Assembly (NCBI GenBank): GCA_020630395.1
Contig: JAHDBM010000001.1
Coordinates: 99,141-131,454 of the forward strand
Direction: 5' to 3'
DNA from: Flavobacteriales bacterium
GTDB taxonomy: Bacteria > Bacteroidota > Bacteroidia > Flavobacteriales_D > CAJJDF01
DNA length: 32,314 bases
This document shows positions 1,307 to 22,972 of this stretch, piece by piece. Each line of letters starts with the position of its first letter. Position 1 is the stretch's first letter. The position numbers and the translations under genes are program-made. Below the pieces are notes generated by a model that saw nothing but the letters and a program-made list of their open reading frames with translations, did not search any database and had not been told where the DNA came from.

Positions 1307-1467
1307 TAATTTGTGGTATTTTAACTATTTAATCCTCTAAAATACGTTCTTTTTACCAAAATTGACATTTTATCTATTTCTTTTATGGAATATTACAATG
1401 AAAGACATCTTATTTATTGAAATGCTAGCATAGATAAAATTTATATCAATTTAAAAAACAATAAATA

Positions 1468-2259
1468 ATGAAAAAACTAATAACAATACTGGGTGTCTTT
1501 ATGATATTCCCTTTTATTAATTTTTCTCAAGGAACTGGAGAAATTAAAGGTGTAATAATGGACTACGAAAAAAACGAAACCATAATTGGAGCAAGTGTGT
1601 GGGTTAGATATGCTGGAAATAAAATTGGAGAATCTACTGATATTAATGGTAAATATACTATAAAACCTTTGGAGGCTGGATCTTACAACCTTGAAGTTTC
1701 TTTCATAGGTAAAGAAACAAGAAGAATTCTTGGGGTTACAGTAAAATCAGATAAAATTCGATTTATGGATACCATTTTCTTAAAAGACAGTTCTATTATG
1801 ATTGGTGGTGAAGAAGGTGGTGTGGTTATTGAAGGTTTTAGAGGTGATGAATTAATTGAGCCTGGTGAAGCAGGGAAAGTAACATTAGATGAGACTAGAA
1901 TAAGTGAGATTGCTGGAGCAGGAAGAGGCAATAATACTTTATTAGAATTAGCAAGTGATGGAGCTGTTAAAACAAGTGCAGACGGAAGCGAAATCTTTTT
2001 TAAAGGATCTAGAAGTGGAGCTTTTGTTACTTTTTTAGACGGGGTAAAACTTAGAGGAAATGCACCAATGGTGCCTGCTTCCGCACTAAAAAACTACACG
2101 GTTTATACAGGAGGGCTACCTGCTAAATATGGAGATACTATGGGAGGGGTTGTTGTGATAGAAACAAAAAATTTCTTTGATTTGTATAACCAAAGAGTTG
2201 CCCAAATGGGTATCACTTACGATACTGATGAACCAGAAGAAGAAGAAACAACTGATTGA
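1468..2259 (+). CDS. Exported carboxypeptidase-regulatory plus TonB-plug domain protein without a beta-barrel
   Basis: The 263-residue product has a signal peptide (about residues 1-20, ending NFSQG). A carboxypeptidase-like regulatory domain follows at about 23-105, with the typical G-V-I-M-D start, GKYTI and GSYNLEVSFIG segments. Residues of about 145-243 match a TonB-dependent receptor plug: LLELASDGAV, FKGSRSGAFVTFLDGVKL, YTGGLPAKYGDTMGG and a VVVIETKN end. A normal receptor continues with a 22-strand barrel of 500 or more residues. Here the protein ends in an acidic tail (DEPEEEETTD), and its stop overlaps the start of the sigma-factor gene, so the short form looks intended rather than truncated. 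I see no TonB box. By context it may sense or relay a periplasmic signal to the sigma factor; that role is inference. Confidence 0.85.
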   Translation: MKKLITILGVFMIFPFINFSQGTGEIKGVIMDYEKNETIIGASVWVRYAGNKIGESTDINGKYTIKPLEAGSYNLEVSFIGKETRRILGVTVKSDKIRFMDTIFLKDSSIMIGGEEGGVVIEGFRGDELIEPGEAGKVTLDETRISEIAGAGRGNNTLLELASDGAVKTSADGSEIFFKGSRSGAFVTFLDGVKLRGNAPMVPASALKNYTVYTGGLPAKYGDTMGGVVVIETKNFFDLYNQRVAQMGITYDTDEPEEEETTD

Positions 2260-2822
2260 TACAAAAAAACAACATATCATCCTTATCTGACGAAGAACTG
2301 ATCATTCGCTACAAAAAAAGCAATAATCAAGAAATTATAGGTGAGCTTTATACAAGATATTCGCATCTAGTGTATGGTGTGTGTTTAAAATATTTAAAAA
2401 ATGTGCCTGAAGCGAAAGACACGCTTATGCATGTGTTCGAAAAGCTAATTGTTGGGCTTAAAAAATATGACATAAGTTTTTTTAAATCTTGGTTATATCA
2501 ATTAGCAAAAAATGAGTGTTTAATGAAGCTACGAAAAAAGAGTAAAACTCATTTTCAAGAAATTGAACAATACGATTGGGAAGACAACACCCAAGATGAA
2601 ATAAAAGAAAAAGAAGAAAAAGAGGAAGAGTTACAATTACTGGAAAAAGCCATTGATAAATTAAATGATAAACAAAAGGTTTGTATCGAGCTATTTTATT
2701 TAAAGAAAATGTCTTACCAAGAGGTTGTAAATCAAACAAACTTCACTTTAAAAGAAGTTAAAAGTGCCATACAAAACGGAAAAAGAAAACTAAAAATAAT
2801 AATGGAAGAGTTATCTGTTTAG
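2256..2822 (+). CDS. ECF-type RNA polymerase sigma factor
   Basis: This 188-residue protein has the layout of an extracytoplasmic-function sigma factor. Region 2 lies at about residues 24-95 (LYTRYSHLVYGVCLKYL, then FKSWLYQLAKNECLMKLRK). A charged linker (KEKEEKEEE) follows, then region 4 helix-turn-helix at about 128-183 (LNDKQKVCIELFYLKKMSYQEV...TLKEVKSAIQNGKRKLK). The only reasonable start is TTG at 2256, which overlaps the TGA stop of the plug-domain gene in the sequence TTGA; no ATG lies before region 2. This suggests translational coupling and one transcript. ECF sigma factors direct polymerase to a small regulon and are usually held by a membrane anti-sigma factor. The next gene, 15 bp downstream, is the candidate partner. 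Confidence 0.9.
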   Translation: MIQKNNISSLSDEELIIRYKKSNNQEIIGELYTRYSHLVYGVCLKYLKNVPEAKDTLMHVFEKLIVGLKKYDISFFKSWLYQLAKNECLMKLRKKSKTHFQEIEQYDWEDNTQDEIKEKEEKEEELQLLEKAIDKLNDKQKVCIELFYLKKMSYQEVVNQTNFTLKEVKSAIQNGKRKLKIIMEELSV

Positions 2823-2837
2823 GCAAAGAAGAAAGAA

Positions 2838-3896
2838 ATGAATTATTCTAATAAAAAAATAACAAGCAAAGATGAGCTTGCTAATTATCTTAATAAAACA
2901 GGAGGTAATGAAGCAAATCATACGCTAGAAAAAAAGGCGTTAAACGATCCTTTTTTAGCTGATGCTCTTGATGGTTTTGAAGAATTTCCGGGTGCTATTC
3001 ACGATATTCCACAATGGAATAGCAATAAGACTACTGGTAAGCAAGTCAAATGGAAATGGATATTAAGCAGCACCCTTATATTGGCAATCCTTATTGGTGG
3101 TTTATATTGGATGTCAATAGATAATACTAACCATAAAGAAACTGGCGTTTTTCTTGCAAAAAACACTTACTCCTTAGCTGAATACACTACAACTAAAACG
3201 CCCTATAAAAATCCAACAATAGAAACATCTAATACTAATACCGTTTTTAATGAGGTAACCATTAAAAAAAATGATCTTTTAAAAGAGCAAACAATGCCAT
3301 TGGTTAGAGAAGTATTTAATTTAGAAACATATCAAGCTGAGCCTGAAATACATCAACAAGAAACAAACTACAACATAGCCGAAGTAAAAATAAAAACGAT
3401 TGCTTATTATAACTTTTTAGCTGTAGATTATTCAGTGATTTATGTAGATAAAAAAACATTTGAGGAAATTGACCTTGGTACTCCCGCCAATCAATCGGAT
3501 GCTATTTCTTTTGGATTAAGTGATAGTGAAAGGATTTCTAACACAGTACAATATACGTACAAAGAATATCTAAAAAGCAGTTTAAAACACCTCAGTAAGA
3601 AGAATTACAAAAATGCAATAGCAAATTTTAAAACCATTTTGGATCATTACCCTCAAGATGTAAATGCCCAATTTTATATTGGGTTTGCCTACTATAATCT
3701 TGACAAACATGATAAAGCAATCCCTTATTTTGAAGATGCCATTCATAATAGCTTCAATTTTTTCTATGAAGATGCTCAATGGTATAAAGCTCTTAGTTTA
3801 ACTGAAGAAGGTCAGTTTATAAAGGCAAATGAACTTTATCGTAAAATTGTAAAAGAAAAAGGATTTTATGCTAAGCAAGCTAAACGTAAGTTATAG
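2838..3896 (+). CDS. Single-pass membrane TPR protein, candidate anti-sigma partner
   Basis: This is a 352-residue protein with a cytoplasmic N-terminal stretch, one membrane helix at about residues 74-94 (WILSSTLILAILIGGLYWM) and a long periplasmic part. Residues 31-46 (EKKALNDPFLADALDG) match a short motif that I associate with Bacteroidota membrane proteins encoded next to ECF sigma factors, often ahead of a TonB-like or CarboxypepD-reg domain. The region at about 245-350 contains TPR-like helical repeats (YKEYLKSSLKHLSKKNYKNA, AQFYIGFAYYNLDKHDKAIP). No FecR or zinc anti-sigma domain is visible. Its place 15 bp after the sigma gene and its topology suggest that the N-terminus binds the sigma factor while the TPR part senses or docks in the periplasm. 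That is inference from context. Confidence 0.75.
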   Translation: MNYSNKKITSKDELANYLNKTGGNEANHTLEKKALNDPFLADALDGFEEFPGAIHDIPQWNSNKTTGKQVKWKWILSSTLILAILIGGLYWMSIDNTNHKETGVFLAKNTYSLAEYTTTKTPYKNPTIETSNTNTVFNEVTIKKNDLLKEQTMPLVREVFNLETYQAEPEIHQQETNYNIAEVKIKTIAYYNFLAVDYSVIYVDKKTFEEIDLGTPANQSDAISFGLSDSERISNTVQYTYKEYLKSSLKHLSKKNYKNAIANFKTILDHYPQDVNAQFYIGFAYYNLDKHDKAIPYFEDAIHNSFNFFYEDAQWYKALSLTEEGQFIKANELYRKIVKEKGFYAKQAKRKL

Positions 3897-21529: not shown

Positions 21530-22972
21530 CTAGAGCTCTTTTCTTAACCTAGCTACTGGAATATCTAGTTGTTCTCTGTATTTTGCTACCGTTCTTCTTG
21601 CTATATTATATCCTTTTTCTTTAAGCATTACGGCAAGTTTATCATCAGTAAGTGGTTTTTTCTTACTTTCCTCATCTATAATGGTTTGCAAAATCTTTTT
21701 TACTTCTCGAGTAGATACATCTTCTCCCGATTTAGTAGACAATGACTCTGAAAAGAAAGATTTTAATAAAAATGTACCAAAAGGTGTTTGAATATACTTT
21801 GTGTTTGTAACCCTAGATATCGTAGAGATATCAAGATCTACCTTATCAGCAATATCTTTTAAAATCATAGGTTTGAGTTTTGTCTCATCACCTGTTACAA
21901 AATACTCTTCTTGATGCCTTATAATAGCTTGCATGGTTACCATCATGGTGTTTTGCCTTTGCTTAATTGCATCAATAAACCATCTAGCAGCATCTAGCTT
22001 TTGTTTAATAAATAATACTGCCTCTTTATCTTCCTTAGTCTTCTTACTTTTATCATATGCCTCAAACATATTAGCATAAGTTGGGCTTAACCTAAGTTCT
22101 GGTGCATTTCTAGCATTAAGTGCAAGGTTTAATTCCCCATCTTCTTCTGTCAAAATAAAATCAGGAATAATATGTTGAATCGGAGCTGCAGATTCTTTTA
22201 TAGCTCCAGCTGGTTTAGGGTTTAATTTTGTTATTTCATCAATCGCATTTTTCAAGCGATCCTCACTCATATCTAATCGTTCTAGAATACGTTTGTAGTG
22301 TTTTTTTGTAAATGCTTCAAACTGTTTTTCGATAACTTCCATGGCATCTAATACCTCATCTCTTTCTTCTACATCCCTTAGCAGCTTTCTTTCTAGTTGT
22401 ATTAACAAACATTCTTTCAAACTTCTTGCGGCAATACCAGCCGGTTCTAATTGCTGAACCTCTAATAACACTTCTTCTATTTCATGTTCTTCGGCCATGA
22501 TGTTAAACTTAAACGCTAAATCATCACACATGTTAATTAACTCTCTTCTCAAATATCCAGATTCATCCAGATTACCTATAATATTTTGAGCAATTATTAA
22601 TTTTTTATCTCGAAGTCTTAAACTAATTTGTTTGGTAAGGTTTTCTTGAAATGTTTCTCCCCCAGAAATAGGAATGCTATACTCATCATCTTCTGCAGAA
22701 GAATTATTGCTGTATGTTTGATAAGAGGAATCGCTATCTAAGTAATCATCTATATCAAAATCGTCTCTTGAGTCAGATAAATCATCACTATATTCATCTT
22801 GATAATCATCTTCTACTTGTTCTCTACCTTCGTCAAGTGCCGGGTTATCTTCTATTTCATCTTTTATTCTTTGCTCAAGCTCAACCGTAGGCACTTGCAA
22901 CAATTTCATTAACTGAATTTGTTGTGGAGACAACTTTTGTTGTAACTTATGTGATAGTGTTTGCTTGAGCAT
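21530..22972 (-). CDS. rpoN: RNA polymerase sigma-54 factor
   Basis: The 480-residue protein shows all three parts of sigma-54. Region I, residues 1-50, is Gln- and Leu-rich (LSHKLQQKLSPQQIQLMKLL, EIEDNPALDEG). Region II, about 50-115, is strongly acidic. The core-binding and DNA-binding region III ends with the RpoN box ARRTVAKYRE at 458-467 and the C-terminal helix. The length is normal for the family. It allows transcription from -24/-12 promoters when driven by an AAA+ enhancer-binding protein; none is in this window. The downstream PAP2-like gene is co-transcribed. Confidence 0.97.
   Translation of the reverse strand: MLKQTLSHKLQQKLSPQQIQLMKLLQVPTVELEQRIKDEIEDNPALDEGREQVEDDYQDEYSDDLSDSRDDFDIDDYLDSDSSYQTYSNNSSAEDDEYSIPISGGETFQENLTKQISLRLRDKKLIIAQNIIGNLDESGYLRRELINMCDDLAFKFNIMAEEHEIEEVLLEVQQLEPAGIAARSLKECLLIQLERKLLRDVEERDEVLDAMEVIEKQFEAFTKKHYKRILERLDMSEDRLKNAIDEITKLNPKPAGAIKESAAPIQHIIPDFILTEEDGELNLALNARNAPELRLSPTYANMFEAYDKSKKTKEDKEAVLFIKQKLDAARWFIDAIKQRQNTMMVTMQAIIRHQEEYFVTGDETKLKPMILKDIADKVDLDISTISRVTNTKYIQTPFGTFLLKSFFSESLSTKSGEDVSTREVKKILQTIIDEESKKKPLTDDKLAVMLKEKGYNIARRTVAKYREQLDIPVARLRKEL

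Follow-up and report, generated by a model that had tools for sequence, protein, structure and literature searches.

A barrel-less TonB plug protein, an ECF sigma factor and a TPR membrane protein with a putative zinc-less anti-sigma domain form a predicted operon widely conserved in Bacteroidota

We analyzed a stretch of 32,314 nucleotides (hereafter, the window) from a Flavobacteriales bacterium (assembly GCA_020630395.1, contig JAHDBM010000001.1, positions 99,141-131,454, forward strand). Three adjoining open reading frames (ORFs) on its plus strand, at 1468-3896, encode an exported protein with the plug domain of TonB receptors, an extracytoplasmic function (ECF) sigma factor, and a membrane protein with tetratricopeptide repeats (TPR). 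Comparison across genomes indicates that this predicted operon is widely conserved in Bacteroidota and that it is served by a putative promoter, newly recognized here. We consider it very probable that these genes constitute a sigma/anti-sigma system that spans the envelope, regulates its own expression and has neither FecR nor a full receptor, with the plug-only protein as a member of the regulon. A previous interpretation of the locus, made from its letters and ORFs and hereafter called the sequence-only reading, described the three genes accurately, including the overlap between the TTG start of the sigma gene and the plug gene stop, as judged from the ORFs and their Pfam domains.

Gene conservation, domain identities, the promoter and its association with a regulon were all computed; homolog counts rest on the 80 best loci from a family-alignment scan of the named genome collection. 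The sigma gene lies directly downstream from the plug gene in 61 of the 79 loci that could be assessed, usually no more than 130 bp away and at times overlapping it, and the TPR protein gene comes next in nearly all of these 61. Cryomorpha ignava (L087) is one cultured relative with the operon. The proposal that the three genes are one unit thus holds across genomes. So does the proposal that the operon includes neither FecR nor a full TonB receptor: the neighboring regulator is the TPR protein, and the plug protein of the window lacks a barrel, as do all 80 homologs. The arrangement is looser in one family (f9), in which the plug and sigma genes are unlinked and each has a copy of the promoter. 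The sigma gene was followed by that of the TPR anti-sigma protein in 10 out of 10 sigma loci examined, nearly all of them from this family. Because the f9 plug is unlinked while sigma and anti-sigma remain paired, we regard the pair as the invariant core, and the plug as a member of the regulon whose gene is, as a rule, the first of the operon. At nine loci the operon has a further gene, for a CarboxypepD_reg protein of ~410 amino acids; at six loci without sigma, this gene comes directly after that of the plug. Proteins of this type (~410-440 amino acids, with no other Pfam domains; L060:10492-11724 and relatives) appear in three settings: as the product of a fourth operon gene, next to plugs without sigma, and as a recurrent promoter target.

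The plug protein matches CarbopepD_reg_2 (E 5e-14) and part of the Plug domain (5e-4, just below the Pfam cut-off), and has no barrel. The same is true of all 80 best homologs, which are plug-only ORFs of about 229-327 amino acids; in 6/6 genomes from the family of the plug protein, the plug-only gene encodes about 245-265 amino acids. A tree of 57 sequences places the 45 plug-only proteins together as a single group (support 98/97), separate from a conserved receptor of ~1220-1290 amino acids and from other receptors. Since all 80 best relatives are barrel-less and the sampled members form one clade, we conclude that the plug protein represents a family and not a truncation. A truncated receptor or a pseudogene was considered and rejected on the same grounds, and the barrel-less protein pointed out in the sequence-only reading can be taken as genuine, given that 0/80 homologs continue into a barrel. 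The family profile covers both corresponding domains of SusC, RagA and other TonB receptors, and the match ends where the barrel starts; the plug core is strongly conserved, with a clean cut at the plug/barrel junction. In the AlphaFold2 model (mean predicted local distance difference test, pLDDT, 81), the first domain aligns to transthyretin-like/NTE domains and the second to receptor plugs, including those of FyuA (Z 9.9, root-mean-square deviation [rmsd] 3.5, 103 residues) and SusC (Z 9.4, rmsd 2.8, 100 residues). The Foldseek and VIA lists for this model are dominated by the CarboxypepD_reg domain, with fewer plug-domain rows, and the absence of any given family from them is uninformative. 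The segment before 'PLIDP' resembles by eye the TonB-box region of receptors. No paper describing the plug-only family or its promoter was found in the literature searched, most subscription papers lying outside it.

Plug-only genes are found in tandem or repeated at some loci (L057, L026, L116, L117). One lineage (L091, L097, L098, L103, L104, L111, L115) has a plug-only gene without sigma neighbor or promoter, followed in constant order by genes for 97 and 489 amino acids. A TonB receptor of the ~1220-1290-amino-acid type, with a plug 35% identical, is encoded at L129:2738-6409, ~9 kb upstream of the operon on the same contig; this receptor is near-universal across the order, mostly one per genome, and adjoins a large secreted protein.

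The sigma protein consists of Sigma70 regions 2 and 4 only (PF04542, PF08281 and TIGR02937, all above cut-off). It scores 66.1 bits with TIGR02985, the Bacteroides-type sigma model, below the curated cut-off of 126.4. The third protein had been described as a one-helix membrane protein with TPR repeats, and both the Pfam TPR matches and its AlphaFold2 model confirm this: in the model, residues 11-56 form a confidently predicted helical domain at the N-terminus and residues 70-94 a membrane helix, from which a disordered linker leads to the TPR domain at the C-terminus. The columns of EKKALNDPFLADALDG, a motif within the N-terminal domain, carry an intact H-x3-C-x2-C zinc motif in 6 of the 52 assessable homologs (e.g., VEKHMLDCELCSDAIEG in L113); others retain the His and have Asp and Leu in place of Cys. 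Pfam zf-HC2 is found above the gathering cut-off in two homologs, L059 and the Cys-less L110. A family profile of the domain matches the PDB chain 3hug_B (E 5e-4) and, weakly, the anti-sigma factor DdvA. We take 3HUG to be the complex of SigL and RslA, a sigma/anti-sigma pair, and 3hug_B to be RslA of M. tuberculosis; the PDB title says just membrane protein. Because homologs carry zinc ligands at these positions and the profile matches a solved anti-sigma factor, we assign the EKKALNDPFLADALDG region as a predicted zinc-less anti-sigma domain of class I (ZAS/ASDI) type, and we infer that the TPR protein binds and inhibits the adjacent sigma factor. A pattern search of the same genome for further proteins of the DPFLADALDG type returned just this TPR protein, and a literature search with the motif string gave nothing relevant.

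Upstream of the plug gene we recognized the element TATGGAAT-N13-ACATCT, which had been missed in the sequence-only reading. The element is located 41-98 bp before most sigma-linked plug genes, and the spacing between its boxes is mostly 13 bases. Of 62 sigma-linked plug genes, 51 have an element scoring at least 11/14, a level that about 9% of shuffles reach, and 29 have one scoring at least 13/14, reached by 1 of 1240 shuffles. Searching 120 genomes of the order with TTATGGAAT-N13-GCATC, we obtained 67 matches in 43 genomes, versus four for the N14 control and one for the reversed pattern. A close sigma ortholog is present in 40 of the 43 genomes with the motif, versus 62 of 120 overall (Fisher p = 2e-12, a value to be taken as a guide only, because related genomes are not independent). 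The association is seen also in a sample of the phylum without the order, after exclusion of four matches inside sigma coding sequences: the site is present in 11/22 genomes with sigma versus 17/222 others (p = 2e-6). The single matches in the sigma-less genomes of this sample look like chance. A looser pattern proved too noisy (61 matches versus 33 in reversed controls) and was not used as evidence.

The predicted promoter sites mark a small cell-envelope regulon. We examined 84 distinct sites; 72 of them fall between genes and have an ORF downstream, whose start is in most cases 34-90 bp away. The recurring targets are plug-only genes, the sigma gene, and genes for CarboxypepD_reg proteins of ~440 amino acids, N-terminal Cys motif proteins, DUF4139 proteins and TPR proteins; substrates of the type 9 secretion system (T9SS) are also among them, and the same target classes recur outside the order. 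Among the relaxed matches in the genome of the window are the window promoter itself and a single other clear target, a promoter copy preceding L193:2006-2746, which encodes a 247-amino-acid CarboxypepD_reg protein with a T9SS sorting tail. In one genome, a serpin gene (L270:280-1407) is under the promoter, which suggests protease stress among the outputs.

We therefore propose a model in which the predicted zinc-less anti-sigma domain of the TPR protein would hold the ECF sigma factor at the inner membrane. The periplasmic TPR domain is the likely sensor, and a signal there would release sigma. From TATGGAAT-N13-GCATCT promoters, sigma would then drive the operon that encodes it, along with a small regulon of envelope genes. 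The plug-only protein belongs to this regulon; once exported to the periplasm, it would most likely serve at the outer membrane or TonB, either as an output or in feedback. The binding of sigma, the direction of regulation, the signal and the role of the plug are the parts of this model that we infer. Several results weigh against it. At about 18 plug-only loci the sigma gene is not adjacent, and the promoter element is missing before most of these plug genes; part of the plug family therefore appears to work outside the sigma system. About 9% of shuffles attain the weakest promoter score that was counted as a match. The strict TTATGGAAT-N13-GCATC is absent from the genome of the window, because the -10 box of the window reads ACATCT. 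Finally, the anti-sigma domain of the window TPR protein has no Pfam match and no H-x3-C-x2-C ligands, and its assignment rests on the homologs.

The role of the plug is where the readings diverge most. It may be purely an output of sigma that modulates outer-membrane transporters or TonB, for instance through competition by its TonB-box-like segment or by blocking barrels; we give this an even chance. The retention of the sigma promoter where the plug is unlinked, the clean cut at the plug/barrel junction and the strong conservation of the plug core argue for it, and the segment before 'PLIDP', should its likeness be real, suggests that the protein may act on TonB or outer-membrane transporters; no partner is known, however, and that likeness was judged by eye. 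Alternatively, the plug may be an input, along the lines of the sequence-only reading: it would act in the periplasm as a ligand or co-inhibitor, bound to the TPR domain of the anti-sigma factor, and so govern the release of sigma. The plug gene is first in the operon in most loci, often overlapping the sigma gene or within 30 bp of it, a signal peptide exports its product, TPR domains commonly bind proteins, and feedback would come from autoregulation. Nonetheless, one family has the plug unlinked while sigma and anti-sigma stay paired, and some genomes have tandem or extra plugs, so that we think an input role rather doubtful. That the plug stays under the same promoter although unlinked is no less compatible with a role in output or feedback than with that of a TPR ligand. 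The same tentative standing applies to the broader idea of a receptor-less form of cell-surface signaling, in which a TonB-receptor plug freed from its barrel might have become an independent periplasmic signal protein that binds a zinc-less anti-sigma factor at its TPR sensor and closes a feedback loop on an outer-membrane response.

Two further explanations carry much less weight. The locus could belong to ordinary FecI/FecR-type signaling, with the receptor and FecR encoded elsewhere and the plug a receptor remnant. SusC-type receptors do share the plug and NTE domains, and the ~1220-amino-acid receptor, whose plug is 35% identical, occurs near-universally; but the sigma factor falls below the TIGR02985 cut-off (66 versus 126 bits), the adjoining regulator in nearly all sigma-linked loci is the TPR protein and not FecR, and the plug-only proteins form their own clade, all of which makes this highly improbable. 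Even less credible is that the protein is the Plug subunit sealing the T9SS translocon SprA, an identity suggested by the shared name and by the T9SS substrates among the regulon targets: the Plug chain of 6H3J (T9SS translocon Plug, Fjoh_1759) was matched neither by the single sequence nor by the 59-sequence profile in a search of the PDB sequence set.

Among known systems, class I (ZAS/ASDI) pairs such as SigW/RsiW and SigL/RslA are alike in the adjoining sigma and one-helix membrane anti-sigma factor, and in the helical cytoplasmic domain at the zinc-finger position; the system described here differs by its periplasmic TPR sensor domain, the linked plug-only protein and the Bacteroidota host. 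Zinc and zinc-less members are mixed within one group of class I anti-sigma factors, and the H-x3-C-x2-C ligands are optional, about 44% of these factors being without them; in Bacteroidota 6% of ECFs adjoin a class I (ASDI) domain, and other modes of regulation have been suggested to dominate (PMC7406223). The Dma/Das dual-membrane anti-sigma systems of Bacteroides thetaiotaomicron, in which operon genes rise upon deletion of the anti-sigma gene, share with the present one a Bacteroidota ECF sigma and an anti-sigma protein that begins with its anti-sigma domain, crosses the membrane in a single helix and has a long disordered linker (PMC13088901). However, Dma ends in a C-terminal beta-barrel, whereas here we find a TPR alpha-solenoid (pLDDT about 97) and a plug-only gene; a further criterion for the Dma anti-sigma family is a cognate sigma of group ECF21. 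The FecI-FecR-FecA and SusC systems likewise combine an ECF sigma, an anti-sigma factor across the inner membrane, and plug and NTE-type domains, but here there is no barrel, no FecR by Pfam scan, and a sigma factor outside TIGR02985. The NTE and plug domains align to those of the TonB-dependent receptors SusC, FyuA and OprC, which have a 22-strand barrel after the plug; here every homolog examined stops close to the point where plug and barrel would meet. The ECF regulon of Flavobacterium psychrophilum SM6 is likewise marked by a flavobacterial ECF motif, and its targets include a sigma/anti-sigma pair, although that motif differs from the element reported here (PMC9723704).

The coordinates of all features are collected in Table 1. 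Elsewhere in the window, an RpoN (sigma-54)-like gene, identified by eye and ordinary, lies on the minus strand at 21530-22972.

Table 1. Genes, domains and predicted promoter of the plug-sigma-TPR locus (window coordinates)
Feature	Position	Strand	Details
Predicted ECF promoter TATGGAAT-N13-ACATCT	1384..1410	+	first base 84 bp before plug start codon
Plug-only exported protein (signal peptide, NTE/CarboxypepD_reg domain, TonB plug domain, no barrel)	1468..2259	+	263 aa
NTE / transthyretin-like (CarboxypepD_reg) domain	1537..1794	+	plug protein residues 24-109; Pfam and structure comparison
TonB plug domain	1846..2175	+	plug protein residues 127-236; aligns to FyuA, SusC and OprC plugs
ECF sigma factor	2256..2822	+	188 aa; TTG start at 2256 overlaps plug gene stop
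Putative membrane anti-sigma factor with periplasmic TPR domain	2838..3896	+	352 aa; Pfam TPR, AlphaFold2
Predicted zinc-less anti-sigma domain containing EKKALNDPFLADALDG	2868..3005	+	TPR protein residues 11-56
Transmembrane helix	3045..3119	+	TPR protein residues 70-94; AlphaFold2 model and sequence
TPR domain	3558..3893	+	TPR protein residues 241-352; pLDDT about 97

A family of barrel-less plug proteins is now defined, whose members annotation would take for receptor fragments. One Bacteroidota ECF group appears to have class I anti-sigma domains in a degenerate form that is missed by the standard model. The predicted promoter and its list of targets in many genomes would make a pathway that previously had no known targets testable with a reporter.
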